Of a DNA stretch of 64,000 nucleotides, positions 1 through 64,000 are shown in pieces. The notes beneath the pieces were generated by a model that was not told where the DNA came from, searched no databases, and saw only the letters and a list, made by a program, of their open reading frames with translations. Made by a program: the position numbers and the translations under genes. This DNA is from Asterochloris sp. CNOR1 (lineage: Eukaryota > Chlorophyta > Trebouxiophyceae > Trebouxiales > Trebouxiaceae). How positions within the stretch are numbered: the stretch's first letter is position 1; every line of letters starts with the position of its first letter. Location of the stretch: positions 1,488,001-1,552,000 of the forward strand of contig OZ017754.1 in NCBI GenBank assembly GCA_963969365.1, written 5' to 3'.

Positions 1-3000
1 AGCAAAAGCCGCAGCAGCAGGATGGGGTGTCCCTTGCGGCAGCTGATATGAGCAAGGTGCCTGTCAAGCGCACCAAGAAGAAGCAGCGTGCCAGCAGGCA
101 GGATGGCAAGGAGGCAGGGCCTGCTGCCGAGAGCTCAGGTCAGAGTTGCAGCCGTGTCTGGCAGGTCATGCTGCTGTCAAGCCATTGCGGCGCCATCTTC
201 AGCTGTTTGCCCCCCCTGAGTCCACTGGTCACTGCTAGCATGCCAACGCTGACCAGCTGATGCGCTGGGCCGGTCTGCACCCAAAGACCGCACGGTCAAG
301 ATGCAGCCCTGTACTGCTCTAGATGGTGCTAGTCTTGTCTGCTGTCCCTACTGCGCTGTGAAGCTGCAGGCCAGTGCCACAAGTGCATGTATCATGATCC
401 TGCAGGCGCCGGCAGCAGCCTTAGAGAACCTGGGGCAGGCAGCGCAGCTGCCAGCATTGTAGGCAGCAGCGAGGCGCCGTCTGCGGGTGTTGGCGACGAT
501 GACCCTGACAAGCGTGAGGTGGTCCTGGCCCTGAAGGCTGACACGGAATTCATTCAGAGCATGGAGGTGGGTGCTGTGCAATGTTCTGCCGCTGCCTCTG
601 CTCCAGGCTCTTGCAGGCCCTGTCTCCAGGTCTCATCTTGGTCCTGCAATTGGTCATGCAGCCTGTTGGGCAGGCTGCTCAGATGATGATGTTGTCAACA
701 GCTATGTGCCGGTGGTCACTCAACTGTTTAGCTGAATGACATGGCTGGTGGAGATGGCTTTGTTGGCAAGTGCTTGCACTGTGGTTGGGCAACAAGTGAG
801 TCTGGCTGGTGACGTGTTTGCCAGCCGGAGACTCTGCGATGCCGGCAGCACTACTCAGCAGCTAAATTGTATCTCTTTGCATTTGCCACAGGCAGCCATG
901 GAGAAGGCTCCTGTCCTGATCCTGCCTGATGATAAGGCAGAGGAAGTTGAGGCCACCACCGAGGCTGAGCGGGAAGCCAAGCAGCTGCAGAAGATGGCTG
1001 TCATGCTCCACAATGAGCAGGGGTAAGACCGTCGCCGCCCAAGTGCTAGGCAGTGTTCGTGTGGGACTGCCTGAGATCACGTAAATGTGGCCAGCAACGA
1101 GCTGGGTTGCATTTATGCTGCACCATTGGACTTTGAGGGTGTGTGACACGTCCATGAGGCTGCCTGGCGCACATGCTGCACAGGTTACAGTATGGTGCTG
1201 AAGCCAATGGGCTGCAGCAGACAGCTGTCACTCAGCGTTCGCGAAGTCATTTCACTGTGACCATCACTGTTCCGACTTGCTGCATGTGTATCCATCGCCT
1301 TCTGCCAAAGCTGTCCTCATTGATCTGTTTTGGCAGGTGGCCGGTACTGCAGCTCCAACACCAGGCCTGAGCGCATCATCGTCCCACCAGGCCTGAGCGC
1401 ATCATCATCCCCATCACATATGAGCAAAGATTGATGTAGGTTGCCTGCCTGTGCAGGAGGACGGTTGAGGCCCTGCAGGTGCAGAGCCAGGCGTGGGGTT
1501 TGGTGATGGACAGCAGCGAGGTGCACCCAGGAATCAAAGCTGAGACTGCTGAGAACCTTGCTGTCCTTCACCTGGTGGCTGACCACGACCGTGACGCCGC
1601 CCGCTTCCTGCTGACTGCACGCAAGGTGGGGTGCAGGGAATCCTGCACAGGGTGACCAAGGATTGGTCAGAAGGGCCCTGACGAGCAACACCCAGCTTGC
1701 CACAGAAAGCAGAGGGGCAGTGAAGCGTGTTTGTGCAGTCCTCAGGGCTGCAGGGCAGCGTCGATATGTAATACGTGTCAGCTGGCGAGAGTGGCTCCTC
1801 CTGACTAGTGCAGAAAGTCGGCCAAGTGGGTCACACAGCGCAAACAGATTTTGATGGGCAGTGTCTGTCTGCTGCTGAAATGCGCTTCTGGTGACCAGTA
1901 GCCTGACTATGCGCTGCAGACGACCACGTAAGCGGGTCATACGGCGCAGTGCAGTGTTGCTGACCAATGCCTGATTGCTGTTGACGAGTGTCCTGGTGAC
2001 CACTGCCCTGCCTTTGCGCTGCAGGAGGCCAGGCGAGCAGGTCACACAGTGCATGTGGCCAAATTGACCCACAGGCTGGCCATGCATTTTGCTGAGAGGC
2101 TCAAGAAGCCGCAGGAGGGCATCAACCTGCTCAAGGTAAGTCATTCTGGATGTTTTAGTACTACCCAAGGATGCCAGATCCCGCATCCAGGAATGGCAGA
2201 ATGGGTCATGGATCTGTCTGCTTCAGCTGTGGTGCATGACCGGTTCAAGTGCTGGGGTGAGGCGCTTGAGCTGCAGGCATGTTGGCCGTGCTGGAAACTG
2301 CCAGATGCTCTGCTGGGGTGCTTGCATGTTGCACCTTGGCCACTGAGTTGATGTCAAATGGGCGGGGAAGGGGTGCATGCTGGCTGCGAGTTAGATCAAG
2401 GCTTGCACCTTGAAGACGCAGTCCAAAGGCCGCTTGATTTTATAAATGGCTTGCATGTGATGCGGAGCTGTTCGACAGGCAACTCCCTGTGTCATCTTCT
2501 TGGTGGCTTGCCCCGGCTGCAGGGCTACTTGCCGGAGGCACTGGCTGGGTTTGGAGCAGCCAGTCAATTCACAACCCTTGTCCGCGCCAACCTGGCCAAG
2601 CTGCTGCACCAAGTGGACGATGGGGTGAGCCCTGCAGATGCAGAGAGCAGCCATTTACCCCACAGTTTCTTGCATCTAGCTCCCCTCGTTGCCCCTCCCT
2701 CCAGGCCAGGCGTCAGCAGCAAAGGTGGACATCGTGGGTGACGCTGCTGGTGTCAAGAGCAAGTTACTGTTCCACATACATTGCTGCCTGGCAGGCCGCC
2801 CTCAATGCATCTGCCAGACACAGCATCCTGATCAGCCCCGCCCATCACGCATGCCCTGGTCCAGGCACTGCTTGGTTGGCAGAACAACGCCTGTCTGCCT
2901 GCGTCCATCAGCCCTGCATGGTGGTCACAGCTGCCAGAAAGCAGGGTCATCCAGAACCTGGCCCATTTTACAGGTATCAGGCTGACAGCCTGTCAGCAGG

Positions 3001-6000
3001 GCACAGCAGCTGTCTGCTCTGCACCTGACCACGAGGCTGATCCCCCATCTGCCTGCTGCTGGGAGCAGCCGCTGAACTGTGAGCATCCTGTCTTGGCTGC
3101 TGCTGAGCGCTCAAGGGTGACTTGACGTCTGCCTGCTGTCCAAGGCAGTCACAATGCTGCAAGCATCCCATCTTTCCTGCCATGCATGCCACGGCCTGAC
3201 TCCCCACCTGCCTGCTGGGCAGGGTGGTCACGCTGTAGACCTCTGCCTCATGTTGTCGCGCTCAGGGGTGACTCCCCATCTGCCTGCTGTCAAAGGCAGT
3301 CCCAATGCTGCAAGCATCCCATCTTTTCTGCCATGCATGCCACAGCCTGACTCCCTACCTGCCTGCTGGGCAGAGTCGGCAGCCGTCATGCTGCAGACCT
3401 CTGCCTCACATTGTCGCGCACAGGGGTGACCTCTAGGCTGTCTGCTGTGCAGGGCACAGCAGCCGTCCTGCTGCAGACCTCGGCAGACCATCTCATCACT
3501 CTGGCTGCTGAGCTGGAGAACATCATGGTGGCCAAGGGGGAGCTCATCCTGGTGAATGAGGCAGGCGAGGAGCAGCTGCCGCCTCAGGCAGAGGCTGCAC
3601 CAGCAGCGGCAGATCCCGCTGCTGGGTCCCCTCAAGGGGCCGAGGGTGCACCAGCTGCCGCTGCTGCCGCTGCTGCAGATCGTGGGGCCTCCCTCACAGC
3701 TGAGGACTCAGGTGGGCTCCCTGCTTGTATCTTGAGCCAGCTGCCTGCTCTGCCCTAGCGCAGGGCTGGAGTGTGGTGACCGCAGGGTCCGGGCAGACAG
3801 TGTGCTCACTCAAGTGGACTGCTGACTGCAGAATGTTGAGCAGGCAAGTTGCATCTCACTGACTCAGCACCTGGTTGACACTTTGTGGGAGATGGGTATG
3901 GGTAGGGCCCACCTCACTGAGGTGGGCCGCCTGCTCCCGGCTGTGGGCACAGACTCTCTTGCGGTCTCGTTCCTGGCCTGGCAGGTGAGAGGGGGCATAG
4001 GCAAGGTCGGGGCCCACAGTGGGGCTGGAACTCAGCTGGGCAGCTGGAAACGCCAGGAGAGTGGCGACGCCAGCTGCGGCGCCCCCCTCCTCTGCACTGT
4101 AGGCTGCACCATGAGCAAGGGACTGAGACGGCCGTCTTGGCGACAGTGGGCAGGGTGCAGCATGAACTCTTAGGTGGTATCATGTGATTATCAGTTTGGA
4201 CACCTAGCGCAGCAGCTGAGCTTACAATCAAGCAGCCTGGTGGCTTTGTCCTGAAACAACGATGCAGTTACTTGGCAGCAGCAACAGTAATCTGCTTCAC
4301 AGCGGGGTCAGATTTTGCGCTGTGGCCACGTGCAGGCAGCAGCGAGCAGTCTGGCGGGGCTGATGCAGAGGGGGACAGCAAGGGTGCGGTCAAGCTGAAG
4401 CTTGCTGCAATTGGGGCTGCGATGTGGGAAGAGGTGACTTTGGTTGATTGCTGAGAGGCTGCACTCCAGCTCCATGCGGTGCAACTGTCAGAGAGTGCTT
4501 TAAACTAAAGACAGCAAGCATGGCACATGTATCATAGACCTCTTATCATGCATGTCCTAGACAACATCCACGTTGCTTCGCAGGACTGAATAGGGTGCTT
4601 GCATGCGCAGTCTGATGAAGACATGGTATGCACAACATGTGTGTTGGTCTGGCCGCCACTTGAGGGGACTCTGCATGGCCTGGCTTCATCTCTCAGAGTG
4701 GCAGGGGTGTCGTGATGAGCAGGTGTTTGGCGGCCACGGGCGTGCTGCTGGCCTCCCTGCTCATTGCGAGGTTGTGCCTCTGCAGGAGCCGCCCATGCGT
4801 CAGCTGATGTTTGACCAGCTGCTGACTTCAGCATCACGGTGCTACATCGAGCTGGGGAAGCAGTATGAGGCCCTCGGTGAGCTCACCTGAACCAGAGCCT
4901 GCTGAACTGCTGTGGCGTGCAGCCCCAATGTGGGCAGTGCTGCAGGTAGTTAATGGTGTACCTCCTAGAACTAGGCCTCATTAGACGGGGAAGCCCCACA
5001 TGGCAGATTTGGCTAGCTCCATTCTGGCAGCCCTGAGAGGGCACCTGCATGACAAATGTCAAGTTTTGAGGCTGTTACCTGCCTCCCTGCCTCTTACAGA
5101 TGTGCGCACAGCTACGCTGCAGGTCACAACACCTACAAGGACCAGCCTGCATGGCTTGCAGCGGACAGGCCAGTCTGCAAGGTCTGAAGGCATGCTGCTT
5201 TGCTGAGATGAACTGTGATGATGGCTGCTGCAGGGCAGGCAGAGCTTGCAGTTCCTGCGTTTCAACGCGGCGTTGGCATTGCCGAGTCCCACAGGGGCCA
5301 GGACTCTCCCGACCTGGCGCCCAGCCTAGGAGCCTATGCAGCATTCCTGAAGTGAGTCGTCCTTTATTGGAGATTGTCTTGCTGCACCCTGATCTGGCAT
5401 CCACGACATGTGGTGCCTTGCTGGCTGCCCAGGCAGCCTGTGCCAAGGTGGGAGGCCAGGGACGCCACATCGTCTCACGCCATGTGGTGAACTGTCAGAG
5501 CATGCCCAGCTGCACTCTGGCCTGGCACCTGGCATTGGTCGCTGCTGCCCAGCTGTCTGTTACATGTTCAAGGTGTGGTTGTCCGTTTGAGCACCTCATG
5601 GTGCCTCCACTGTCCAGGAAGTCGGAGAACCCTGATGACAAGCGCCAGGCCATCCAGTTGTACCTGAAGCTGGCCGGCATGGTGAAGAACATAGAAGGTG
5701 TGGCACCAGAGCAGCTGGCTCTCATTCACAGGTGAGCTGCTTTGCTGGGCCACAGCGTGCCTTGTCGCTGTAGGCTGCCTCCTGACAGATGTGCAGCTGG
5801 CTCTGGTTACAAATGTGTTGATCCAGTCATTACAGGCCGCCTGCTGCCATGTGTCCAGCTGGCTTGTGTGCACAGGTGTGCTGCACTCCTGGCCTGCACA
5901 GGCTTAGACAAGGCTGCCTACAGAAGCACTTGCTCTCAGACCGGTGGAATTGCCAGCTGAGCCTTGACTATGTGGCAATGAAACAAGCCTGCCCGTTGAC

Positions 6001-6683: not shown

Positions 6684-7223
6684 GCACTGAGAGACAGCAA
6701 TTGGAACTCGGACCACCATCAACCCAGCCAACTTCAGTTTTGAACTTCATTGATAGTACAGGCCAGCTGCTGATGAGTGTCCTAGTCAGAATGGTGTGAT
6801 GTGCCTCCAATGCTTGACCAGCACTGTCTGTAACATGTGGCGGATGGAGAAACCAGTCATCGTAAACATGGTGGGAACCAGCCCCATGCAGATACTTCCG
6901 ATCTCAGCAGCCTGCTCAATCAGCGCGCTTGGCCTTCCCACGTGCTTCTGATCGCGGCTCTGCGGCTGAGGTGTGGTCTGGCCCGTGAGAGCCCTTCATC
7001 TCCTTTGCTGTGTGCTCCTGCAGGGAGAAGTAGATCTGTGTTGGCAAAGGGTGCTTTGGCAGAAACACATCAGCGTTGCTTCTGCAGAGAGACAGCAATG
7101 CCTGCAGGGCCATCAACCTCTCGTCTGGGGGTGGCAATGTTGTACTGGGCTTCCCCAGAGCAGCCAGCAGGCAAGCGTCAGACAAGTGGCAAAGCTCACG
7201 GACACCGCGTATGCTTCCAGAGC
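6684..7223. other. Convergent 3' interval, TPR and FMP16-like genes
   Basis: The interval lies between the two stops. A minus-strand ORF of 89 codons (6916-7185) sits in the likely 3' UTR of the FMP16-like gene but shows no domain. Nothing else was seen. Confidence 0.5.
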
Positions 7224-8353: not shown

Positions 8354-10037
8354 CCCCTGCTGCAGCTGGCAGAAAGCTTCGCAGATGGTATGGGGAGGAG
8401 GAGCGGCTGAACAGCGAGGAGCTGGCGGAGCTTCAGGGTGAAAACCACCCCACATCACAGCCAGAGCCTCAGGATGACCTGCCACGCACAGCCATTCTGG
8501 TCACAGATGCAGACAGCCCACTGGGGGAGGCTGTCGTGCTGCAGCTCATCCTTGCACGGTGGGTTGTCCCCAGCTGGCTGCGCCTCGCAAGTTTGAAGAA
8601 ATGCAGTGCAATGTGCTGAAGATTGCCTCAGCAAGCTCATGCTATGGACGCACTCAATGCTCTCACCAGCCTGATCGCCACCTGCAGACTGCAGGGGACT
8701 GGCAGCACCAGGAACCTCAGTCATGTGGAGCTTGCCCTGTGCAGGGCAGAAGTGAAGGTGCTCGTGAGAGATGCGGAGGAGGCCAAGCGAGGATATGGAC
8801 CTTATGTCTCTGTCTGTGGAGGCAGCACAGGTGGGGTCAAGGGGCCATAGGCCTGCCCTGCTGACCTGTGCTGATCTGTACTGCTACCCTATGCACGGTG
8901 CTGTCCAGCTCTGTACCTGAGCAGCTGGCAGCACAGGAGGGGACCTGGCTGTTAATGACTGACGTGCGGAAGCCCCCTCTGCACTGAGCCTGCCATTGGT
9001 GCACCATCTGGCCTCTGCTCGTCACCTCACGACTCCGCTGGCGCCATGCAGGTGATGTGCAGGCCCTTGCTGCAGCACTGCGGGGCGTGAAAACTGTGGT
9101 CTGCCCAGGCAAACTGGGCAGCTTGGCAGAAGTCATGAAAGTCCAGCAACCCACGCGCCTTGTACTCTTGTCTTCAGCAGGTGACGCTGCGCTCTGTGCC
9201 AGACAACCTTGCTGAGCTTGGCAGCCATGGCTGACGTCTTGCTTGGGGCATGCTCAGCATGCTGCAATGGTGGCCATGTGGCTCAATGCATGGGCTCCAC
9301 GGAGCTGCAATGGTGCTCGCTGTGCCCACTGCTCTGAAGCTGCAGCCCCATTGGCCGGCATTCAAGGGCTCTGGAGGCAGTGCTGGCACACTCCGCGCAG
9401 CCTTCTACAGAGCTCTTCAGCAGACTGCACTGAACCACACACTGCTGCCTGTGCAGGTGGCCCCGGAGCTGCAGCCCCCTTTGGCCGCCTCCTGGGGGGT
9501 CCTGAGGCTGTGCTGGCAGAGCCTGCCCGGGAGCAGGCTGTGCAGCAGGCAGGCATCCCCTGCACCACAGTGCGCACCGGCAGAATCTTGAACGCAGCTG
9601 GGGGGAAGTCTGAGCTGCTTGTGCAGTTGCCGGACTCCAGCAGCAGCGATGCAGGCTCCATCAGGTGAGCTGCTGAGAAGCCTGGCAAGGCCTCGCTGGA
9701 GATGCATTCCATTTGCAAGTCATCCTGAATCAGGCAGCTCGTTGGCTCAATGCATAGGACGCCAATGCTTGTTTTTGGCTTGCAGTCGTGAGGATCTGGG
9801 CAAAGTTGTTGCTGAAATTGCGCAGCAGGAAGCACAGCATAGACAGATAGTTGTCCAGGTGCGTGCCGGCATGGTGCTGCTTCACATTTGTCCTTAAGAT
9901 GCTTTAGCAACCATTCCCTGTTGTATCTGCAGGTGAAAGCTGGCACTGCTGGCAGACAACCCCAGGACTGGGGTGCAGTGTTTTTGCAACTACAGCAGCA
10001 GCTGGCAAGCTCAGATGCCAAAGCTTCTGCTTCTTAG
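8354..10037 (+). CDS. Atypical SDR/NAD(P)-binding Rossmann protein, PTAC16-like
   Basis: Six exons join in phase: about 8354-8558, 8745-8830, 9052-9180, 9457-9664, 9786-9858 and 9933-10037 (TAG). The first block has a beta-alpha-beta start, TAILVTDADSPLGEAVV, where the glycine-rich loop is degenerate (DxDSPLG). Next come VKVLVRDAEEAKRGYG, an ALRGVKTVVCPG segment, PTRLVLLSSAG, and CTTVRTGRIL before SREDLGKVVAEIAQQ. This order matches atypical extended SDR/NmrA-like proteins, and it closely recalls Arabidopsis PTAC16, a thylakoid/nucleoid-associated plastid protein. The classical YxxxK catalytic pair is not visible, so a scaffold or cofactor-sensing role is more likely than a dehydrogenase. The N-terminal exon, presumably a chloroplast transit peptide, is unresolved. 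ATGs at 7905 or further upstream in the 7900-8350 interval are candidates. Confidence 0.72.
9300..9530 (+). repeat. Decoy copy of the exon 9457 start, PTAC16-like gene
   Basis: The exon's GAGCTGCAGCCCCCTTTGGC then CTGAGGCTGTGCTGGCAGAG (9476-9520) is echoed about 130 bp upstream as AAGCTGCAGCCCCATTGGCC then CTGGAGGCAGTGCTGGCACA (9338-9391). Confidence 0.8.
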
Positions 10038-16184: not shown

Positions 16185-19100
16185 ATGGCTGACCAATCCT
16201 CCAAAGCGAATGCAGCTGAAGCTGCTGAGAGGAGTAAGAGCGAGGCCTTGGCTGCAGCTGAGAAGGGATCTCCAGTTGTTACCCTGCTGGCCAAGCGCAT
16301 CAGGGCTGCTAAGAAGCGGCTTGGCAAGATTGAAAGCATGGAGAAGCTGCGAGACAGTGGCAAGCCCATGAATGCTGATCAGGTGGGCTGCAGCAGCATG
16401 TGCATGGCCAGGACAAAGCTCTGCATGCATTTGCAAAGACCTGGGCGTCTCTTGGACCAGGATCATCATCATGCCTGTCCATTTGGCACGGCCATCTCTT
16501 CCTTCAGCAGCCTGGCCCCTGCATCGCTGCTCAAAAGCACACTGACAGGCTCCTTCGAGACAGCCCATCTGCCCACAGATCAGATGCATAGCCCTTGACA
16601 GGGTGGCCTGCTAGGTGCAGCATGCTGGCAATCCCTTCACGGCTGTCACGGATGCATCTGCAGGAGGCCACACTGGCAAGCAAGACGCGCACTCTGGTGG
16701 CCATGGAGGAGCTGGAGAGGCTGGTGCCAGTGCTGAAGGTGGGCACCCTGCAGCTGGGTCCTGCTGTCAAAGATACATCACACCCCATTGCTGCATCTAG
16801 CGCCTCTGCAGCCTGGCAGCTCCTGAGGGAGCCGGCTCAGATGGGCACAGTCCAACAAAACTGGTATGGCTGCGCGTGAGGGCGTCAGTGCTGCTGCACA
16901 GCGACTCTGCGAGATTGCCAGCTACAGCCCACAACTGATGAGGTCTCAAAAGGGACATCCGCAGCAGAGCCCCTGCAGAGCAATCTGGGAACTGGGCTGC
17001 CCCCAGCTGCCTTGAACTCAAGCTGGGTTTTGTCCTGCCCACGTCAAGCCCCCCTCGATGAGGTGACATGAGAGAGCCTGCACCCTCATGTTGGCGGTGG
17101 GTGCCTGCTGAATATGCGCAGGAAGCCGCCCCCAACATTCTCTCACAGCAATCCTGTCCATCTGTTTGCTTGTTGGCAGCAGAAGCTGTTTGAGGAGGAA
17201 GCAGACAGTGTTGTCCAAAGACCCCTATTCATTGAGCAATGGGTGCTGCCACATAGATAGCCACACAGAACTGGAGTCAGGACTTGCTGACTGTGTGCAG
17301 GTGCAGTTCAGGTGAAGGAAAGCAGCTGCATATGCAGTCCCACCAGCAGCTTTCGAAGAAATGAAATGTCTGCCATGTCTGCTGGATGCTGGCAAGGTGG
17401 AGGCTGACATGGCTGTCGAGGAAGCCTCTTTCAGCACTGGGTGCAAAAGTCATAAGCAGCCCCTATGCCTTGGCCGTGTGCAGGTGCAGCCAAGTTGGAG
17501 GCAAACAGCTGCATGTGCAGTCCCACCAAGAGACGTCCAGTATGCTTGCCATGCCTGCAGGATGCTGCCAAGGAGGAGGCAGACATTGCGGTGAAGGAGG
17601 CCCTCGATGCTCAGGAGAAGCCAGACGTGGAGCATGAGGTCGCGGCAGCAGTCGAGAAGGCGCTGGATGAGGAGCGAGCACGGGTTGCAGAGGTCAGCCA
17701 CTGCATTGAGAAGTCCTTGTGCATGCAGAGTTGGGCTGTTGTCTGACTGTGAACCAGGTATCTGAAATGGGTGCAACTGCAGCAGAGCCAGCCTGGGTTG
17801 GGGAGGTTGGCTGCTGCACTGAGGCCATTTGGAAGCAAGGTGGGCTGCACTCCAGCTGTGCAGGAAGCTAGATCTGTGGTGTGGAGCCAGAACCCAGCCC
17901 AGGCTGCAGGAGTCGGCTGGGCCAGGTTGTGACTGTGCTGCACTGCCAATTTGTTGCGTTGCAAGGTAAGCTCAGGTCAGAAAGACAGGCCTGCGCCTGC
18001 TGAAACAGGGATGGAAGAGCCAGGCTCTTGGCATGTGGGTGGCAACTTGATTGCAAGCTTGTGGACGCTGCACACAGATGTTGATTCTACTAGTGTCCCT
18101 CCACTGACTGGTGTGCTGCATGGAGACCAGGCGTTCATGCTGCAGGTTGCCCTGAAAGTGATGCTGCTCATCAGACACCACGTCTGATCAGCTCCTTGTC
18201 TGCCTTGATGTCTTCAGCTCATCTGCCCTGCTGAGGCCTACGCCGTCAACCTGCTGCAGGCGGCGCCCCCCACACCTGACAACCAGGACAAGGGCAGCAG
18301 CAACCAGCAGTTGGAACACTCGGACGAGGATGTAGCTGAAGCGCAGAGCAAGGCAGTCTCGCAGCTGATTGAGCTTCTGTACTTTGCGCATGTCAGTTCA
18401 GACCCCCTGCTGGAAGCTCGCCCACTGCACCACATTCTGGCCTTTATTGGAAGGGCCCATGCAGACCCCTGGCTGCACAGCAAGACCTGCATGCTGCACT
18501 TCTGGTTTTGCATCAGCAGTGCCCCGCACAAGGAAGTACCCTGCCTGAGCTGTCAGGGACTCTAGCAGATCTGTCTACAGCCTGTGCCTGACACTCTGCC
18601 CCTCCTCTGAGAGGAACCCATGTGGGCCCTGTGCTGCACAGCAACACCTGCTTGTTGTGGGTCTGCGCATATGCAATGCCCAGCACCGGACAGCAGCCTC
18701 CATTGGCGGGCAGCAACTTTGGCAGAAGTGTCACTGGCAGCACTGTACAGCGGCAGAACTGTACAGCAGTCAGGAAGCAGCTTCACCAATCTGGTGTTCA
18801 CTGCCTGCAGACCTTCCAGTACCCTGGTGGCGCAGTGGAGCGGGCTGAGCGCAATGCTTGCCTTTCCTACAACGCTCATCCAGAGGTTGGTGGGGACTTG
18901 CGCTGGGGATGTCTTTCATGCTTGGCCTGTTGGCTGACACTGTGCAGGTACATGTGGCAGACAAGGACACAACTTCTGACCACTGCAATTGTGAGTGCTC
19001 ATTCAATATCTGGGCCCATGTGGACTGTAATTTTCAAGTGGGTTCATGTGCCGCCTTCACTGCAATTCAGCCCTTCTGGACACGTTAGTGGTGCCTCTGC

Positions 19101-43800: not shown

Positions 43801-44517
43801 AGCATTTTCGGCTTGCGGCCACCAGCAGCCCACCACCCCACGCCCTTTTCGCTGGTGGCCCTTCAGCAGCAGCATCAGCAGCACTGCCTCCGGTGGCCGC
43901 AGTACCCCAGCTGTGGGCAGGGATGGCAGCCTCCTGGCAGGCACTGCAGGTGGGACATGCCTCATCATGCCATGTGCTGCCATGACGAGACAGTGCCTCT
44001 CCGTGAGCAGGGGCGGCAGCACGCTCGGCAGGCCTGGTGTGGTGCTGCTGCTTGTTGTGTTGCGTCAATGAGCTAGCAGGAGGCTTCCTGCATGCTGTGA
44101 TGCTGTATTGCACTGCAGTCCCTGATTGCAGTCTGGGCCAGGGTGCAAACACATGAGCGCTGCAGGCAGCCACTTTACAGTAGCGTGTTGAGCGATCATG
44201 CTGCACAATCTGCCTCACTACTGCATGGCAGGAAGTACAGCAGCAGTGCTCTGAGCTGCAAGAGGCGCTGTTCATGCTTCTTTGGAGGACTGTAGGCCTC
44301 CCTCATTCCCTGCAGAGCACCTGGGTCCTTGAGGCACGCTGTATCATGACTGCCGTACTGCTTGCAGAGGCAGCACATCAGCACCTGCAGTCAACCCCAG
44401 CAAAGGCTGTTGCGCCCTGCAGGCGGTGGCAGCAGCTCGGCAGATACCCCCTACGCCAGCGCGAGCAGCCTTGCCAGCTTCATGCCAGGGGAGCCCGGGT
44501 CAGAGCCCCACAGCTGA
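40874..44517 (+). CDS. DA2/SIP5-like RING-type E3 ubiquitin ligase
   Basis: Exons: 40874 to about 40943 (start uncertain), 41138-41241, 41314-41406, 41650-41802, 42321-42407, 42669-42749, 42873-42971, 43262-43427, 43803-43949 and 44423-44517 (TGA). Phases agree throughout. Order of blocks: [20 protein letters not shown] and [15 protein letters not shown]; the RING-like finger [31 protein letters not shown] and [17 protein letters not shown]; a charged helix; then [20 protein letters not shown]. This is the exact architecture of plant DA2 (GLYxxKDVDxxKLRKLI ... [16 protein letters not shown] ... LEELMxMEAIxxSxQE) and fungal SIP5. DA2 ubiquitinates the DA1 peptidase to limit growth; that role here is inferred. 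The Ser-rich end [18 protein letters not shown] is predicted from phase agreement. Two donors may be GC. Confidence 0.82.
41775..41996 (+). repeat. Donor-side decoy copies after the CPYC exon of the DA2-like gene
   Basis: The real exon end GGGCTCAGCGCGAG with donor GTGGGTACTG at 41803 is followed by copies at about 41903-41925 (GCCCCAGCCTGAGGTGGGTG) and about 41978-41996 (GGCCCAGCGCGAGGTGCAC). Spacing is about 90-110 bp. Confidence 0.7.
43618..43768 (+). repeat. Two-copy tandem repeat in a DA2-like intron
   Basis: GATGCAGTGTGGCACTGTTT at 43618 and CATGCAGTGTGGCACTGTGT at 43730 each continue into (G/A)CAGGTGCACACTCA. The period is about 112 bp and each copy carries a CAGGT junction-like sequence. 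Confidence 0.85.
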
Positions 44518-47600: not shown

Positions 47601-50472
47601 GCTCCCTGCGGCCTGCCCTCGGCAGCATAGCAGTCTGTGAGCAGAAGCCTGCGGCAGTGGTGGGCGCGCTGGAGCCTCTGCGGGCTGCCATCCGCAGCCC
47701 GGCCGGCTCGGGCGCGCAGCATGGGGCAGGTGCAGCCACAGCGGACCCCATTGGGGCAGTATATGGCTCGCCGCAGCCTGCCGTCTGCAGTGTGGTGGTC
47801 CCTGACCTGCAGCCTGCAGGCGCAGCAGAGCCTCTGTGTGCAGTCATGAGGGAGCGTCTGGACAGGTGGGTTCAGGCTTGCTGAGTCACTTTCTGGAGAC
47901 AGACTGATGTTGCAATCATGTCAAGCGCTCGATGTTTGCTATGTCATGGAGTTGCTCTTTGCCCTGCCAGCAACTCCCTGCAACAGAGCACTGGATAGTC
48001 ATTCAAAGACAAAGGCATGCTGCCTGCCCATGGGGGCCACATGGGTCCTGCAGCTGGCTGAGGGCGCTCTGAAGGTCAGATACTCTTACCTCTGGCCCAT
48101 GGTATGTGCAGGCAGGGGACGCATGGGTCCCTGCGGCCTGCTGACTTGCCCCTGGCACAGGATGCGCATCGGGCGGCAGGCTGTGAGGCTGCACCTGCAT
48201 GTCCAGCGGGCGGTCTCAAGCAGCCAGAACACCCTTCTGGGTCCAGCAGCAGGGGTCTCGTCAGTGCTCAGCTGGCAACAACTGGCAGGGAAGGATTGGC
48301 ACCAGCGGCAGGCTGTGGGGCGCTCCAGCCTGGGCAGCCCCAGACCTGGCCCTCTGCCACACAGCTGGAGCCAGCCACAGCAGTGCCGGCCAAGGTCCCT
48401 GCAAGCGCATCATTGGGCGTGGGGCCCATGCAGGCCTCTGCTGTTCTTGAGGCTCTGGCCAACCACAACCTGGAGAGGCTGCAAGCCCTGGCAAAGGCTG
48501 CTGCCAGAAGGAACCAGGCAGGCCAGCCCCTGCTGTTTGGCAGCGTGGCGCAGGCGCCGTTTGTGACCCATACACTACCTGCTCATGACCACTCAGCAGC
48601 GAAGGAGGGGACTGCCGTCAGCAGCGCTGTGACTGCTGCTGCTGCAGCTGCAGCCCAGTTCAGGCAGGCCATGGCAGCTGCCAGGGGGCACAAGCAGACG
48701 GCGGTACCAGCGCTGGATGCACAGGGGTCAGACTCTGCCGCTGCTGGGGCTATGCAAGACGCTGCTGCTGCAGTCCCAGCTCCTCAGGACATGGCAGCTG
48801 GCAGGGGAAGTCAGCAAGTGGCAGTGCCCGGGCAGGAGTCCGGCGACACTGCTGCTGCGGCCAGGCAGGCCCCTGCACCTAGCGTGCTCAGCCCTGCACC
48901 AGGCGAGCAGGAATCTGAGCCCCACGAGGTGCTGCGCCTGCGGGGTGGGGCCAGCACAGAGCTGGGGAAGGAGCTGACAGGGCAGGATCTGACAGGCGTC
49001 ACCCGTGCTGTGCTGCTGTCTGCCGCGCCTGTTGGACAGCGCAGCGGGGGCTCTCAAGCGGGCACTGCTCCACAGACGCCCACTGCAGCGGAGACGCCAC
49101 AGTCATATCCAGGCCAGGGCAGCAGCACAGCCTCAAGCCCAGCAGGACAGGCCGGACAAGCAGAGCATCCTGGCTTGCCGCCCACCATCAAGAGTAGCAG
49201 CAGGGCTGCAGAGGACCCGGCAGCGCGGGCTGCACCAGCAGAGCAGGCTGGCGCGCAGCTCACCACCAGGAGGAGCAGTGGTGCCGCAGACGGCCTGATG
49301 CTGGCCACATTTGGGCCGGAGGCCGTGCTGCTACAGAACCCTGATGGCAGCACGCAGTATGTGCTGCTGACCAGTGACCAGCAGCAGGCGGTGCAGCTGG
49401 CGCTGCAGAATCAGTCTGCAAATGATAAGGTACGCTGGTGTGGCATGTGCTGTGCGGCTGGGCCTTCAAGAGCCAGGGGACGCTGTGTCCTACATGTCAG
49501 CTGAGCCGGGTGCTGAGCCGGGAAACAGAAGTGGTTGCGACAGAGCACTCCAGTCCCAGCCTTGTGGTCCTGCAGATGGTGGTGCACATTCAGTTGCCTG
49601 ACTTGAACAGGAGGCATCACTGTCTCACTGCTGCCAGTAACCGAAATATCGAGCCGTCTGGGTTGCTTTGGCAATGAAATACTCTTGACGGCCCTCATGT
49701 GCTTTTGTCAGGCAGCACCCTGATGGACGTCCAGCCCGTTGCTGTCATCAGATAAGTTTCTTCATCCCTAAAGTGTCTCTTCATCACCAGGTTGCTGTGT
49801 GGGGAGCAGACAGCAGGCATCAATCCATCGCTGGTGTCTGATGTATGTTTGATTTGCAAAGATGTGTTGCTGTGCAGCAGCCAGACACCGAGGATCAAGC
49901 CATCACCGATGCAATCGCTGAGGGAGATGAACTGCTGCGCAGGATGTATGCTGCACAAGCCCAGGCAGACTCAGCACAGCACGATGCAGCTACAGCTCGG
50001 TAGGGCCGCTGTTTGACGAGACCCGCAGTCTGTGGGTCTGCTTTGCAGCATTGCAGCCGGCCCTTCATGTGGCATCCTTGCCTTGTTGTGCTGAACCATC
50101 TGTCAGCTGCAGGCATGGCCTTTCTTGCAGGGCTTAGTGAGCAGGCTTGTCGCACCGCCTGTGTCCCCTGCCGGCAGGCCTGCCTGCCTCGCTCTGACGT
50201 CATGTTGCTGTGATCTCGGTCTGCAGGCATACCTAACTTGGCTGCAGCCCCAGTCAGGCTGGACTTCATGGTGCAAGCAGGCATTGTGCACTGCAGCACC
50301 AGCTAAAAGGCTTGTCCCACTCGCTGCACATCATATTCTGCTCAGTGCTCTGCTTCTCCTGCGCAGGTCACCCCCTGATGCCACAGATATTTATGATGAG
50401 AGCGAGCTCCTGAAATGCATGCGCCTTGAAGATCAAGCCCTGCAATCCCTTTTCGTGGAGCACACAGCATGA
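44633..50472 (+). CDS. Large Ala/Gly/Ser/Gln-rich protein with short coiled coil, function unknown
   Basis: Exons in phase: about 44633-44707, 45093-46609, 47278-47865, 48112-49429, 49878-49999 and 50367-50472 (TGA), roughly 1,240 residues. The start is a helical stretch, MESMEQQVALPASQEPAK, then GSMQANIGSLQLGIDSLSRD (coiled coil). Long low-complexity segments follow, with recognisable islands: LGKRLGSSNARKRLFREL, MEQLLQSGDSWARQDDLAAS, DGSTQYVLLTSDQQQAVQLA, EDQAITDAIAEGDELLRRMY and the C-terminal DESELLKCMRLEDQALQSLF. One stretch reads VLRLRGGA, identical to the ubiquitin C-terminus. I recognise no domain family. The first exon is uncertain: it overlaps, in another frame, the interval just after the DA2-like stop, so the two could be one locus with alternative splicing. 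Confidence 0.6.
47188..47340 (+). repeat. Clear decoy copy of an acceptor plus exon start
   Basis: CTGCAG at 47182-47187 followed by about 57 bases ending AGCAGCTCCTGCAGAGC repeats the real CTGCAG (47272-47277) and exon start at 47278. GCTGAGCACCA is shared, as is a 17-base identical block. The offset is 90 bp. This is one of the best-preserved exon-edge copies in the window. Confidence 0.9.
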
Positions 50473-54285: not shown

Positions 54286-54327
54286 AGAACCTTGTCACTA
54301 AACAATGGTTGAAGTGTTTGTTGGTCG

Positions 54328-57300: not shown

Positions 57301-58480
57301 AGAGAGGGAGGCTGGAATACCAAAAGGTGTATGCCGCAGCAGCCAACAGGCAGCCCACCTGTGTGCTATGCAGTGTTTGTGGCAGTAAGCGACGGCAGAC
57401 ACAAATTGCTTGAAGTAGTATCTGCTTTCGTCTTCGCTGAGTATCAGCCCCTGTGGGTCGATGTCCGGGAACTTGTCTGCTACGTAGCTGGTCAGGCTGC
57501 CACCTGCATGCGTGACAAGCTAGCAGCAGCTTCAGAGGGATATTGCCCTCAAACAGATGCCTGTCGGTGAAGGGTGGCATGCAGCTGCAGGGGCAGCAGC
57601 TGTGGTACCAGATTGGCGGGCATGTGGCGTGTGGCTGCCATTGCTGCCATGGCAGTTGAGTCCAGGGAAGAGGCGGGCAGTGAGGGTGCCTTGCCGACCG
57701 ACACAGCACCCATAGTGTCAACTCCAGCACTCGACATGACAGTTCTCACCCTCTGCTGCCTCCATGACCAGCCCCAGGTGGGTGGGTGTCAAGATCAGAT
57801 CATACACCTTGATCAGATTGATGTGCCCCTCAGAGATCTCAGTTTGGATCTGCAGCAGCAGCCAGACATTCCTTCAGCAGCTGTACAGTGGCTGCAGGGC
57901 TGCTGGAGATGCAGTGCGTCATGTGCATGAGATCTGTGAGCTCAGCAGCAGCATGTGGAGGAAGAGGCACAATCAGCTGATCAGCTCAGAATCAAAAAGG
58001 GAGAACATAACACCACACAGCACCATGCAGGTCCAGCATTGCTGGACCACTAATCCGGCTGAAACAGCAGCACAGCGCAGCCATCTTCCCACCAGGCCCC
58101 AGCATGGGTGCCACCATACAGCTGACCTGGCTCCCTTGATGTAGCTCAGGCCGATACACGGCGACAGAGTCTAGGGGCCATTCTCATGGCTTGCTGGCAA
58201 CCAGTGCGCAGACCCAGCACACCCAAGATCCCTCTCAAGACTGCAGACACAATGTCAGCACAGCCTGACTGTCACCATTCGGCAGGCCAGGTTCACCTTG
58301 ATCTCCCTGAGGACTGCGGAAACAGCACCAGGGTCCAGCGGCCGCTCAAACAGCTTGACTGCCACCATCTTGCGGGTTTTGACATCACGAAACAGCCAGA
58401 TCTCGCCGGCAGCGCCCCGCCCCAGCAGGCGCACTGCCTGGTGGGTACCATCCAGGCCTACCCTGTGCGTCTGCTGCTTG
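54328..58480 (-). CDS. SnRK-like Ser/Thr protein kinase
   Basis: Kinase subdomains appear in order on the minus strand: the Gly loop LLGRGAAGEIWLF and VAVKLF lysine (exon ending about 58289); YVADKFPDIDPQGL, then YYFKQFVSAVAYCHKHCIAHR (about 57490-57362); DLKLDNTLLDG; ICDFGFARDWTKLDRL; TIEYMSPELL followed by an unusual GHEGKDGKTSPYDPRS insert; ADVWAAGVMLVVSLCGAFPY (about 56415); QETTMRWRESEYIKHNINK; and CQDLLDKIFQVDPKQRITLQ then DIQKHPWY (about 55420-55330). All catalytic residues (K, HxD-equivalent, DFG, APE-like SPE) are present. The architecture is that of SnRK2/CAMK-like plant stress kinases. The C-terminal exons (ELVGRRMQRIEQLVQEATTK, then a tail to 54328) are joined by a GC-AG intron. 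The start codon, upstream of 58480, is not determined. Confidence 0.82.
55890..56110 (-). repeat. Decoy acceptor copies in a kinase intron
   Basis: On the minus strand the real acceptor CCCTGCAG then GATGCAGGAGACTACC (about 55910-55890) is preceded by copies CCCTGCAGGATGCACCCAGC (about 56015-55990) and a weaker CAGGGTGCCTGCCCCTGCCG (about 56102-56080). All share an upstream ACAGGGT(G/A) motif. Confidence 0.7.
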
Positions 58481-60413
58481 GCCTGCCTGCAGTGCGGACA
58501 CAGGCTGGTTGCCGCACAAGCAAGTGCCTGGTGAGTGCCCTCTGCCTGTTCCCCACAACCCCGCTGCTTCGACCTCCCTGCAGCGCAGAGGCAGCCTGCC
58601 TCAGAGGCCACAGCAGCGCATTGGTCCCTGGCGGGTGCCAATGCAGGCCCACAGTCAGAGGCTTGAAGACATGCTTGGACCGCCTGCAATAAGGGAGTCA
58701 AGCAGCTGAGTACTCAGTAACGGCACTGCATTGAAGCTGACCTGACATTTGCCCCACTCTGCAGGTGTGCAGTTTGAGATGTAGAGCAGCACAAGGACTC
58801 TCAGGAGCATGTGGACGGAATGCTGTGCTGCTGCTGCACAGGCTGCTCACAGCAGAGGAGCAGATGAGGGGGTTTCATGACCAGTGGGACACGGTGACCA
58901 GGACAAGCTAGCCAAGGAGGCGGTCGGCTGCATGCCTGCTGCTCAGTGCATCTGCTGTATTGCCCCCCACAGCACAGGCATGGGGGCAGCAACATCTGGT
59001 GACATGTGCCTGCTGCAGTCCATCACCAATTGCTTCCAGCCTGCTGACCACGAGGGGGCAGATAGGCCAAGCCAGGCAAGAGGCAAGCTCATCTTGCATA
59101 TGCATCACAGAAAGGATGCAGTTGGGACGGTAAAGCACCACTGCATCCCCACAATGAAGCAAAGAGCCTGCGAGAGGCAACAAACCCACAACACCAGGTT
59201 GTTCTCATACATGCAATATGCTTGTGTCAGTAACAGCTGGGTGCAGCACTGCATGGTGCCACTGAGGTACATGCCAGCCTGCAACTGCACATGCAATCCA
59301 CTTGCCCAGGCCTGCCATGAAATAAAAGCTCACCCTTTCTGCAGTGAAGGGCCAGCACTGGTGGTGTAATCTCTCTCCTTCACTGCAGCAGGTGCGTTCT
59401 CCTTTGCCGAGGAGCTGTCACCCCTGCAGGCCGAGAGGCAGGGACCCATTGGCCTTGGTCTGCCCGGCTGATGTCTAGTACGTCAGCGGTAACCGGAACG
59501 CCAGAGCTCAGGCGATGATTGACTCAGCATGGCCCCCGGACTCTAGATTTAGCTCCAGCATCATCCAGTCTGTCGCCAACTGGTTGTCTTTTCAGTCCAG
59601 TATTGTTGTTGATCGGTCCACCGTCTGGAGTGATGGCAGTATGACAACTTACAGGGTCTCGATGAAAGAATGGATCATGCCTACATGCGCCAGCTGAGCA
59701 AGCACACGTTGTTTGTAAATATGCCTGCATAATGGGGTTCAAGGGGATGAGAGCAGATGAAGATGAGGCAGCTGAGGAGGCATAGGGACAGTGCATAAAT
59801 TTGCATCAGCAAATCAAATGGGGGGCTCTCAACTGGTATGCCATGAGACTTGAATGCCGGCCCCAGACTAGGCAAAAATGTTCTTGCAATGCCGATGGAT
59901 GCAAGCATGCAGAATTGGTTTAAACAGTAGCCACTGCGACTCGAGTCAGGCGCTGCAGAAGCTTGCAGCGCCGTAGGCCAGCCCCCAGGCAAAGGAGCCC
60001 CAGCCAGAGGTACATCAGGGCTGTGGACGCTGACGGAATCATAAGCATTGATTTGGCAGCACCCCAAACAATAGGGCTACCACTCTGCAGTTACCATGGG
60101 GGAACAAAGTCAGAACTGAACCAGGGGGCCTTGGACAGAGGCACACGGGTACTGAGACGGAGTGAAGGCTCCCCAAGGTAGGATGCAAGGCGCTCCAAAC
60201 AGAATTGCCCTGCTGCCGGCATCGCTTCAGAGGCCTTTGCTGGCGCTTGACCATGTGGAAATGCACTTGCACCCCCAGCTGGACTTGCTGTGGAGCCCTG
60301 AGCAGATTGGAGGTTGGCTCCAGAGTCTGCGCCAGAAATTCTTCAAGTGCTCCAGAGCTTAGGGGCCACAGAGTCAGGCCCCAGAGCTGCTGAGCTCCAG
60401 TGGCTCGGAACAG
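58481..60413. other. Unresolved region between kinase and histidine-kinase genes
   Basis: The region should hold the kinase's first exon(s) and the histidine-kinase 3' UTR. Possible coding scraps: plus-strand HRLLTAEEQMRGFHDQWDTV (about 58838-58912), SFAEELSPLQAERQGPIGLG (59398-59472), YIRAVDADGIISIDLAAPQ (about 60013-60072) and HVEMHLHPQLDLLWSPEQIG ending at 60362. On the minus strand, DLLMQIYALSLCLLSCLIFI (59810 area) looks hydrophobic. None joins with phase into a recognisable protein, so no gene is called. Confidence 0.3.
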
Positions 60414-63400
60414 CTAAAAGCGTTCCAGGGCCTTGATGGCCACTGTGTTCTTGTCGCTGAACCGGCGGCGGCCCGAGATAACTGACAGGATGGCCTCGGA
60501 CAGCCGGTCCTTCAGGACAGGCTTGCTCAAGAAGCCATCCATTCCTGCGTCCAGACACTCATCGCGATCCTTATCAGATGCGTTTGCCGTCATCGCGATG
60601 ATGGGCGTGTTGTGCTGGAGTTCGCCTTGGCGGATCGTCTGCAGGCAGGCAGGTGCAGGTGGAATGAATGCTGCTGACAAGAGACAGCACATGGATCTTG
60701 CGGTCAAGGCTGAGATAGTAGGGAGAGCCAGCTGGAGGTGCACCTGCCATCTGCAAGGAGAACTGGGGCAGTTCAGGTGCTGGTTCTTGGTGGGGGCTTG
60801 TGCAGCAGGTTGTGTCCTGCTGCCATTGCGCCTGGGTGCTCAGGCTGCAGGCAGAGAGAAGGACTGTGGAGCACATTGCTGGGTGTGCTCATCGGGGCAA
60901 GCCTGCTTGACCACCCCTGGCAGACAGCCTGCAGGCAGGTGGGGGACGACTTAGTCTTTGGTTGTGGGTGTGGGGCTCCTGCAGCCCTGGCCCTGGCACA
61001 TGGTCTACAGACAGAGGTGCAGGCACTGTGGGCACACAGCCCCGGTCAACCCCTTGGCCCACAACAGGCTTCAGGGAGGGAGAAAGAAGCCTCATGAGGG
61101 CATGCCTGCTGGGACTGGCCTGGCAGATGGTCTCCAGGCACAGGTAGGGTGCACCATCTGCAACAGTCTCTGTGATGCAGTCAGGGCCCCAGCATCTGGT
61201 GCCCTGGCCAGAGCTGTGTACTGCCGTTTCTGAACAGTCCTGATGACATCAGGGCCCCTGCATCTGACCCACAGCCCCCCAGTGAGGAGGGGCTGCAGGC
61301 TTGAGGTGAGCCACAGATGACTGCCCAGATCATGATCTAGCTCCTCCTCTAGGCCACCCTACACTGTGACTGTACAGCAAGCTGCTTGAGCAGTGGGGCC
61401 CATTCCTTACCCACCTTGGTGGCTTCCACCCCAACAATGACATGCAGGCCATGCCCAGGACCAGCTCAATGCTCAAGTTGGCGCTGAAGCAGGGCTGCGT
61501 GCACTCTCACGCTCATGTGTGTTGAGAGGACATTCCCACAGCCCAACATGCCTCTCTCGCCCATAGGAAGACCCTGTGCCCTTCTGCTGGCTGCCAGCAT
61601 GTGTAGCAGATGGATCACAGAGCAACAGCCAAGACCCATCTTGATTGCCTCGACCCATCTATGATGGGCGTGAGCATGTCCATGAGACTGATTGCAATGC
61701 TGCAACCTCACTGCAGCTTGGTGACCTCTGACTGCTGAACCCTCATGGCTACTGGGTGCCTGCTCCCACAGCCTCATGCCCGCACAAAGCTCGCGTCAGC
61801 CAATCGCGATGGCTTGCATGTAGGTTTCTGGTCTGCAGCAGTCCCCACCTTTGTGGCCTCCACTCCGCCCATGACAGGCATGGCCATGTCCATCAGGATT
61901 ACGTCAAAGGGCCTGGTTTTCCGCTGTTGGCGCCGCCGAACAGCGTCCACAGCGTCCAGCCCATTGGCTGCTACCTCCACCACCATGCCTAGGCTGCACA
62001 GCATCTTCTTGGCCACCGTCTGGTTGATCAGGTTGTCTTCTGCCAGTAGCACGTTGCGCCCCTGCACAGTAGCACTCTCAGCGATAAAGGAGAAACTGCA
62101 GCACTGCCTGGTTGCTTGAGTCGCCTTCGACCAGCAGCATGTTGCTTGCTCCTGCACAGGGGCTTTGATGGTGAGATGGGCGTACTGGCCAGCACTGTAT
62201 GGGTACCAGTACTCTTTGGGCCGCGTGGGGCTCGCCAGCACATTGCACCCTAATACTATAGGACCACAGGCCTTGCGAAAAGAGTCCTGCAGCAGTTTCT
62301 GACAGGTACTTCTGTCCTGTGCAGCAGCACAAGCGCCTCTGCACAGGTACTGGTAGTGAGAGGGTATGATGGTCAGCAGTATATCAGCCTCAGGAACTGG
62401 GGCCGCATGTGGTCCGACAGCACATTTGTCCCCGAGCAGAGGGCACCCATCAGAGACTCAGCATGGGTATGCTGGTCTGTGCAAGCACTGGCGCGTGCAG
62501 CAGGGGTCCCTTAGATCTGCCAGCAGCACATTGCGCCCCTGCACCAACAATCACAATATGGTCATTGCAGTGCATCATGGGACAGGGCAACACAAAAGTG
62601 GACCTTGCAGCAGCAGCCTGAGAGTGTGCCTGACAGCCTTCAGCACCCTGCAGGGGCCCGCTGCATTGTGCTCTGCGCTGCCTTGCGGCAACAAAGGGTT
62701 GATGTAAACAGAAGCGCAGTCCGCACAGATGACATGGTGTACTGCCCGCTGACCCACATGATGGACCTGCAGATGTGAGGTGTCCAGCTTTCCCCCTGTA
62801 GAGTGCTGTCCTGCCCATCAATGCAAGCGCATCTCCTGTCATGTACAGGCAGCTTACCTGCAGGCATCAGGTGTCCAGCTTGTGCCGCTGTGTCGTCTTT
62901 GTAGGGCACTGAAAACAGCCAAACATTATGCCGTTTCAATCCAGACCCACCTGCAGGGCTGAGGTGTCCAGCTTGCGTCGCCGCGCCTCCATTGAAGGGC
63001 GCTCCTGCTGCCGCCGCACAGATGCAGCCGGCGAGGGTGCTGGCACCATGGCTGTCAAGTCCTGCCGCAGGCAGGGCTCGGTGGCACTGAAGGACGAAGT
63101 GCGCCGCTGAGAGCCCAGCTCAGCGGGTAGTTCCTGCAGGGCCCACTGAACACCTGAGGGCCTGTCTGCTGGAGACGAAGGCGAGTTGCGACTGCCCAAG
63201 GGACTCAGCAGCAAGGCAGCCTCAACCCGCCCAAGCCTGCAAGGAAACCCTGCGATGCATGTAGGAAAGGGTCTTTGATGCCAGCACAGGCAAAGCAGAC
63301 CTGCGGCATGCAGGCGGAGCACAGCAGTGCAATGGGCATATGTAGAGCAGCGTGAAGGGCAGCAGCAGGCAGGCACACACAAGCACAAGTCTGCATGCAG

Positions 63401-64000
63401 GCGCAAACGACACAGAGTTTGGCCAGGCAGGAGAAGGGGGCGATGCTAGGCGCTGGCTTGGGCTGGTGTTGCTGCGGATGTTCTGGGGAGCTGCGTTGCT
63501 CCATCATGGAGCGCAGGCAGCACCGTGTGCTGCAGGGGTTGAGACAAGTGCAAGCAGCAGGGGCTGGCACAGTTGGGCAGGCTTGCTCTCTCTTTCCATG
63601 GCGGTGACAAGTGTTTGGTGGCAGGACTTGAAACTGGGCTTTCAAACAGTACGATGGCAAGGCATCAGATCTGGCTCAGCCAAGCGCTAATCATGGAATT
63701 ACTCCCCCAGAGGATGTTGGGGCATCCAGAGCTGTGATGAATACTGAGGCAAGTGCCGCATGCTCGGCGAACCAGTGTGCACATGCATATCTCCACATGC
63801 AGGAGGTGACATGCTCTGCTACAGCACGAATCAGGGCACCCAGCAGGGGTCGTGGTGCTTTCAGATGACAAAACAACACTGACAAGGGGGAGAGACCTCC
63901 TGTCCTACTCCTTGTGTCCCTTGCCAATGCTGACCTGAACCTTGACCTGCATCTCGGGCAGGGACTCTAAGGAGCCATGCGTGATGCCCGTCGCCAGAGC
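60414..64000 (-). CDS. Hybrid histidine kinase, C-terminal part with receiver domain
   Basis: The 5' part lies beyond the window. Visible exons: about 63943-64000 (QALATGITHGSLESLPE-like; the preceding fold cannot be judged), about 62949-63240 (Ser/Arg-rich linker), 61849-62061 and 60414-60638 (stop at 60414). The last two exons encode a complete response-regulator receiver: NVLLAEDNLINQTVAKKM (acidic pair), PFDVILMDMAMPVMGGVEAT (phosphoacceptor Asp), TPIIAMTANASDKDRDECLD (Thr/Ala switch) and GMDGFLSKPV (Lys). All conserved catalytic residues are intact, so phosphorelay from an upstream kinase domain is expected; that domain itself is not in view. Introns on both sides of exon 61849-62061 are filled with decayed copies of its two edges and of the next acceptor. 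Confidence 0.8.
60910..61160 (-). repeat. Three acceptor-side decoy copies in the receiver intron
   Basis: The plus-strand sequence around the true acceptor (TTGGCGGATCGTCTGCAGGC, about 60628-60647) is echoed at about 60914-60945 (TGGCAGACAGCCTGCAGGCA), 60997-61025 (TGGCACATGGTCTACAGACA) and 61118-61155 (TGGCAGATGGTCTCCAGGCA). Confidence 0.65.
61406..61692 (-). repeat. Two donor-side decoy copies of the phosphoacceptor exon end
   Basis: The true exon end (plus strand CACCTTTGTGGCCTCCACTC, then CATGACAGGCATGGCCATGT; 61846-61890) is echoed at 61634-61690 (CATCTTGATTGCCTCGACCC ... GTGAGCATGTCCAT) and 61406-61460 (CACCTTGGTGGCTTCCACCC ... ATGACATGCAGGCCATG). The more distant copy keeps a GTGGGTAAGG-like donor on the minus strand. 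Confidence 0.8.
62100..62546 (-). repeat. Acceptor-side decoy copies of the receiver exon start
   Basis: The true start (plus strand CTTCTGCCAGTAGCACGTTG then CGCCCCTGCACAG, ending about 62069) is echoed at 62108-62160 (CCTTCGACCAGCAGCATGTT ... CTCCTGCACAG), about 62222-62256 (GCTCGCCAGCACATTGCACC) and 62505-62545 (ATCTGCCAGCAGCACATTGC then GCCCCTGCAC). On the minus strand the first copy still reads NMLLVEGDSSNQAVLQF and the last reads GRNVLLAD. Confidence 0.85.

Follow-up and report, generated by a model that had tools for sequence, protein, structure and literature searches.

The question raised by a 64,000-nucleotide stretch of the green alga Asterochloris sp. CNOR1 (GenBank assembly GCA_963969365.1, contig OZ017754.1, positions 1,488,001 to 1,552,000 of the forward strand; hereafter the window, numbered from its first letter) is how its introns came to contain degenerate copies of the exon edges that border them. 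Such copies had been described in a sequence-only reading of the window, and they are real: introns here carry copies of the edges of their own exons. Short tandem duplications with a bias to exon edges are the probable means by which these introns grow.

Similarity of introns to their flanking exon edges

The window was analysed together with 26 stretches of 10 kb from elsewhere in the genome, giving 324 kb of 56.4 Mb (~0.6%) from one genome, the assembly of which comprises 21 contigs (18 of 2.0–4.5 Mb). Exon and intron coordinates were taken from models predicted by a self-trained gene finder, which learned the donor consensus MAG/GTGAG and the acceptor consensus CTGCAG/G (slash, splice junction) and predicted exons and introns with medians of 138 bp and 311 bp. 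GC stood in place of GT at ~9% of predicted donors. The gene finder fuses adjacent genes, several models spanning neighbouring genes as judged by different Pfam domains within one model; gene counts are therefore too low, and the exon and intron calls are its useful output.

Each intron was aligned to its own flanking 80 bp of exon and called positive when either side scored at least 30; introns of matched length from other genes (swapped introns) supplied the background. From 505 predicted introns 71 were first excluded (outside 50–1200 bp, or flanking exon below 30 bp), leaving 434 usable introns. Positives numbered 80 of 434, against 8.2 expected from swapped introns, and 21 of 87 in the window alone, against 2.0 expected. 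Backgrounds were similarly low for swapped, shuffled and reverse-complemented introns in an earlier set of 327 introns, and the comparison that the sequence-only reading had proposed, introns against 80 bp of flanking exon, thus placed own-exon similarity far above both shuffled and swapped controls. A first, poorer round of gene models, which contained micro-exons (several of them sitting on repeat copies), gave a weaker yet clear signal (18 of 356 introns on one side and 15 on the other, against swapped rates of 0.45% and 0.39%); stronger exons gave a stronger signal.

Copies of donors lay near donors and copies of acceptors near acceptors, as had been claimed. Among 222 introns of at least 300 bp, copies of the upstream exon fell 40 times in the donor half and 7 times in the acceptor half, and copies of the downstream exon 14 and 48 times, respectively. 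Duplication across exon edges was found at both intron ends, with 31 donor and 40 acceptor pairs at lags of 50–200. Copies occurred on both strands, and at least one copy-bearing intron was present in 22 of 27 loci. In the window the copy-bearing introns fell in 6 of 10 gene models, short of the ten or more genes first proposed; because the models merge neighbouring genes, the true number of affected genes is probably higher. The 84 edge-spanning pairs identified sat on 80 distinct junctions, so that one detectable copy per edge was usual. One to four serial copies per intron had been described; three were found at a single edge, in locus L009 at ~5590 (lags 125, 244 and 367). Five introns carried copies at both ends, two of them in the window (46610–47277 and 62062–62950).

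The signal was checked on genes with homology support. About 12 chaperonin exon clusters were listed by a Pfam search of the genome, and three were chosen before their introns were seen, none having been used in training. The three predicted chains aligned to structurally solved CCT eta, epsilon and alpha; where a model was in error, exon ends supported by homology were substituted or the stretch was omitted, and one junction (L030 3229/3971) has an adjoining one-residue gap in the alignment. A copy was carried by 8 of 19 CCT introns, against 0.28 expected. The model errors themselves were an exon start placed 87 bp too early in L029 (3540 for 3627; 3540–3627), where no copy of the region around the true acceptor turned up at that spacing, a false 39-bp exon in L030 (2896–2934), and a wrong 17-bp exon in L028 (3157–3173), where about 31 residues are missing.

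It is hardly credible that the copies belong to a dispersed mobile family (introners) or are an artefact of gene prediction. The gene models are predicted, and whole-genome DNA searches would miss decayed dispersed copies, but introns of other genes matched exon edges no more than shuffled introns did, bearing out the gene specificity that had been claimed. A distant match at E 1e-3, always weak, was found for only 11 of 280 units in the 324 kb (the twelve best rows covered 18–34 bp), the signal was strengthened by stronger exons, and the homology-checked CCT genes show it. Three whole-genome DNA searches returned the query itself alone; known partners nearby at 74–76% identity were missed as well, so that these searches exclude only close dispersed copies.

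Tandem units, their decay and their decoy splice sites

The copies are parts of head-to-tail units. In 52 pairs with strong exons the lag had a median of 108 bp (interquartile range 90–153 bp) and the exon part of the unit ran from 21 to 69 bp at the 5–95% points, in agreement with the spacing of about 75–150 bp and the exon part of 20–60 bp first read from the window. Lag spectra displayed local degenerate repeats at 60–250 bp in the window and in 18 stretches, save 3 of the 18 with no match, and these repeats were absent from a third-order Markov version of the window. Banded self-alignment of 244 kb gave 124 pairs at a score of at least 44 and 160 pairs at a score of 40, against 0 and 3, respectively, in one shuffle of each sequence. 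Across 45% of the 84 edge pairs the alignment extended over at least 80% of the lag, and unaligned remainders of at least 30 bp were also similar to their partners (39 cases, P=2e-5).

The copies have decayed. Among exon-part copies of at least 30 bp, 40 of 68 were frameshifted or bore a stop, lags of edge-spanning pairs were spread over the three frame classes (37/23/24), and mismatches occurred at rates of 0.234, 0.206 and 0.268 at the three codon positions. In pairs lying wholly in exons the lag was a multiple of 3 in 7 of 8 cases, and in mixed pairs in 10 of 13; in-frame exon lags are expected under purifying selection and therefore also support the gene models. That the copies are alternative or missed exons is very improbable: they are exon-derived and carry splice-like motifs, but the frameshifts and stops, the spread of mismatches over codon positions and the alignment of the CCT exon chains to solved homologues without need of the copies all speak against it. 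Two tandem repeats in predicted coding sequence of the window (48606–48964 and 49116–49295, lags 117 and 75, multiples of 3) are probably protein repeats.

The many near-identical units of a minisatellite were not found, 12 of 175 self-similar pairs reaching 90% identity, and the one window array that Tandem Repeats Finder listed with a repeat period longer than 26 bp had 3.1 copies of a 79-bp unit. Inspection of aligned edge copies did not clearly show the nearer ones to be younger, and motif counts at the exon-side ends of units yielded nothing clearly enriched, the copies being too decayed to judge microhomology.

The exon part of the units is short, reaching 80 bp in 0 of 85 cases, against 72 of 213 in simulation. 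A fixed unit centred on the junction was considered and dropped: with more realistic lags, acceptors showed the shortness clearly (P=1e-5, or 2e-4 when scaled to lag) and donors showed it weakly (P=0.018, or 0.12 when scaled to lag). We read the short exon part mainly as a filter that preserves the intron 3' end. In 90% of 40 acceptor units the inferred intron part came to about 35 bp or more, a minimum that fits the need for a branch point and pyrimidine tract near the acceptor.

Many of the decoy splice sites carried by the copies still appear, by their scores, to resemble usable sites. The 5th percentile of real sites was reached by 30 of 48 decoy donors and 32 of 56 decoy acceptors; the remaining GT and AG dinucleotides of introns reached it in 17% and 9% of cases. 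GT was retained in 26 of 45 decoy donors (GC in 5) and AG in 37 of 55 decoy acceptors. It is nonetheless quite improbable that the edge copies are retained by selection for a regulatory role of their decoy sites or exon-edge motifs in splicing. The high scores of many decoys would fit such a role, as would identity of the copy to the real site of 0.82–0.86 at the core splice-motif positions, against 0.65–0.80 in most other offset bins. Against it, a frozen real site paired with a neutral decoy already predicts an identity of ~0.79 (from second codon positions), so that the excess is small, and retention of the decoy GT/GC and AG was near the neutral level.

Exon-edge bias and probable intron lengthening

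In the 324 kb, 175 self-similar pairs were found, of which the 140 with lags of 50–300 were compared with random placement. Observed and expected counts were 84 and 41.8 for edge-spanning pairs, which have one exonic copy, 29 and 50.1 for intron-only pairs, 13 and 27.7 for pairs with exon in both copies, 8 and 10.2 for exon-only pairs, and 6 and 10.1 for intergenic pairs. The process is thus a general one of short tandem duplication, occurring in introns, exons and intergenic DNA, with a bias to exon edges. Relative to intron-only pairs the edge-spanning class was enriched 3.5-fold (bootstrap 2.6–4.9, over the 30 blocks holding matches), and the enrichment was 3.4–5.0 across 7 exon stringencies. 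Repeats with lags of 12–49 bp yielded 1 edge pair in 37 against 2.7 expected; being without edge bias, they place the bias in the longer class. Intron-only units lay barely nearer to exons than chance (P=0.10).

Such a surplus might arise with no edge preference at all, if duplication were uniform, exon-internal events were purged and the constrained exon copy kept edge pairs recognisable for longer. Several observations are of the kind that this would produce: the depletion of pairs with exon in both copies, the in-frame lags of exon-only pairs, the minimum intron part of acceptor units, which a purifying filter predicts, and the greater likeness of exon–intron columns than of intron–intron columns within the same pairs (0.760 vs 0.722, P=0.005, 52 pairs). 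The size of the bias was set against four sets of unbiased simulations, in which duplication was uniform, decay, deletions and constrained exons were included and the same detection was applied. Every one for which enrichment was computed, including those with frozen exons and high indel rates and those that came near the partial coverage seen in real pairs, gave 0.86–1.39, well short of the observed 3.5, and simulations that lowered intron-only duplication to 0.3 and 0.2 gave 2.9 and 4.2. Restricting the comparison to the 30 pairs with 80% identity or more left a bias at least as strong (edge 21 against 8.6 expected, intron-only 4 against 11). An absence of edge preference is accordingly unlikely. 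Plain survivorship, uniform duplication with slow decay of the exon copy, had been the leading reading and was given up when stricter models and the four simulation sets fell short of the observed bias.

We consider it likely that short head-to-tail duplications biased to exon edges lengthen introns, with splicing hiding them. Duplication, typically of ~110 bp, would favour units that include an exon edge. After duplication of a donor-spanning unit, splicing would keep using the upstream-most donor, and after duplication of an acceptor-spanning unit the downstream-most acceptor; mRNA and protein would be unchanged, the event would be nearly silent and the intron would gain one unit. The inner copy of the exon edge, with its decoy splice site, would then be free to decay, and repetition would turn compact introns (~60–120 bp) into introns of several hundred bp. 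As the cause of the edge bias we prefer a mutational hotspot around exons, although retention by selection might also produce it. The wider proposition, that exon edges of this lineage are mutational hotspots for ~100-bp tandem duplications and that introns lengthen from their ends genome-wide, by duplication of their own exon borders, in a manner distinct from short-unit slippage, is advanced tentatively, as something that may well prove wrong.

Copies and intron length are linked. No copy was found in 110 introns of 57–188 bp, while 44% of 110 introns of 453–1083 bp had one, and the median length was 502 bp with a copy and 277 bp without. The predicted intron lengths in the 324 kb look bimodal: some introns form a compact class at ~60–120 bp, and a second class spreads broadly above 240 bp.

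A number of points weigh against edge-biased lengthening. The link to length is partly arithmetic, since an intron that holds a ~100-bp unit cannot be very short. A detectable copy was present in only 18% of introns, and most marked edges had one, so that the description of introns as built from serial copies was overstated; 5 of 27 loci had no copy. The expected enrichment rests on a simplified simulation, which came close to the partial coverage seen in real pairs without reproducing it (39% of real pairs below 0.6 and 45% at 0.8 or above; 31–33% and 51–54% in the closest simulations). In the first gene models exon made up no more of the repeats than chance predicts (30.6% vs 30.3%), which had seemed to favour survivorship. 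The models are self-predicted, and all three CCT models proved to hold one error each; the CCT edge counts are small (9 edge and 3 intron-only pairs against 4.9 and 5.2 expected, at a score of 40), leaning the same way as the main sample. No young polymorphic event was seen. The five copy-free loci (L002, L007, L014, L018 and L023) together hold 64 usable introns, and copy density may vary along the genome.

Copies in the window and known routes of intron gain

The genes of the window are eukaryotic and intron-rich. A Pfam search of 9 proteins or parts of proteins, taken from the first gene models, identified bestrophin, chlorophyll a/b binding, protein kinase, response regulator, LSM, ribosomal S15, CID, MYND and NAD(P) binding domains; among these 9, proteins 4 and 7 had no match and protein 1 had a TPR match under the cut-off.

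Both ends of intron 46610–47277 are marked on the forward strand. Positions 46644–46710 copy the exon end 46543–46609 with a decoy donor CAG/GC (score 66), a genome DNA search returning the query only, and 47192–47241 copy the exon start 47282–47332 with a decoy acceptor CTGCAG (score 58). Intron 62062–62950, on the reverse strand, is likewise marked at both ends, by a copy at 62858–62910 of the exon end 62951–63003 with a decoy donor CAG/GTAAGC (score 54; genome DNA search, query only) and by a copy at 62102–62145 of the exon start 62014–62057 (score 40). The kinase exon 58297–58486, also on the reverse strand, has a product that aligns to SnRK2 kinases; its start is copied upstream and its end downstream. 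The copy of its start lies at 58607–58652 in the upstream intron 58487–59333, with a decoy TTGCAG (score 38), and 58260–58278 in intron 57850–58296 copy part of it on the donor side (score 30; 48 with the junction). Another stretch of reverse-strand exon, 32912–32954, is copied on the donor side at 32795–32837 (intron 32125–32905, score 46) within a 3-copy family at 32799–33103, and the weak copy at 25434–25486 (intron 25388–25890, score 30) corresponds to the exon start 25331–25385.

The other copies are on the forward strand. Exon ends or donor-side exon sequence were copied at 1200–1230 (from exon 973–1003, donor side; intron 1023–1456, score 38), 19448–19487 (from exon 19211–19250, donor side; intron 19287–20087, score 60), 23250–23327 (from exon end 23100–23176, with an AG/GT junction; intron 23177–23805, score 34), 37119–37159 (from exon end 37025–37066; intron 37072–37600, score 64) and 41869–41914 (from exon end 41757–41802, with a decoy donor; intron 41803–42320, score 34). 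Exon starts were copied at 3379–3404 (from 3459–3484; intron 2625–3452, within a tandem-repeat region at 3014–3510, score 44), 9331–9388 (from 9460–9518, acceptor side; intron 9181–9456 of a model with an NAD(P)-binding domain, score 50), 17385–17426 (from 17561–17602; intron 16739–17560, score 52) and 36768–36839 (from 36864–36940; intron 36359–36860, score 38). Weaker matches to exon starts were those at 33723–33754 (34134–34165; intron 33249–34130, score 32), 35645–35699 (35799–35852; intron 35029–35796, score 32), 38590–38612 (38683–38705; intron 38222–38674, score 30), 43539–43599 (44427–44490; intron 43428–44422, far from the acceptor, score 30) and 48033–48061 (48115–48144; intron 47866–48111, score 32). 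Intron 35952–36205 has two weak copies, at 35986–36035 of the exon end 35899–35943 (score 32) and at 36161–36193 of exon 36251–36280 (score 30).

The lengths of introns are usually attributed to transposons, small indels and deletion bias. Messer and Arndt in 2007 and Thomas et al. in 2004, both cited by Pace et al., reportedly described short local or tandem duplications, and patch-mediated break repair in rice is said, after Vaughn and Bennetzen in 2014, to produce tandem duplications that measure tens to hundreds of bp. The rice process is not known to have an exon-edge bias, whereas such a bias is a feature here. Introner elements likewise are repeats associated with introns; the copies described here differ in matching their own exon edge and not, beyond background, the introns of other genes.

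Local repair-linked duplications of up to a few hundred bp are known (Pace et al. 2009, PMC2671141); there, tandem cases were removed and partial exon/intron donors made up 4 of 824, whereas one copy was exonic in 84 of the 140 tandem pairs of this genome. The comparison is loose, human introns being far longer.

That introns can originate by tandem duplication is established (Lehmann et al. 2010, PMC2891723; review, PMC3488318). Intron gain by tandem exon duplication (Rogers-type; PMC2891723) shares with the present case a tandem duplication that contains exon and an extra copy hidden by splicing, but it creates a new, unit-length intron inside an exon, whereas here existing introns probably lengthen at their edges. 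It is extremely improbable that the introns studied here were born whole in this way, from an exon with a proto-splice site. The expected signature, similarity of the upstream exon end to the intron 3' end and of the downstream exon start to the intron 5' end, was at swap level at a score of at least 24 (1.8% and 1.4% in the two tests against 1.9% and 2.1% in swapped introns), and the downstream-exon test stayed near swap level at 28 and 32; at a score of at least 28 the upstream-exon test gave 0.7% of 434 introns against 0.16% swapped, and a handful of such births is possible.

Edge-wise intron growth went unmentioned in the passages of the Coccomyxa genome paper on intron, tandem and repeat and in the passages covered of the A. 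glomerata paper (PMC6652019), and in a search of mostly non-subscription papers none was recognised that describes it as a habit of a genome. The copies suggest an unusual mode of intron growth, biased to exon borders.

Edge copies may mislead gene prediction, given the micro-exons of the first models that lay on repeat copies; a link to the CCT model errors is possible. If the explanation is true, edge-biased duplication would be a traceable mechanism of intron growth and a constant supply of strong decoy splice sites, and it would serve as a natural experiment on spliceosomal choice among tandem sites that are nearly identical. The strength of the decoys makes their neglect by the spliceosome, if they are indeed neglected, noteworthy in itself.

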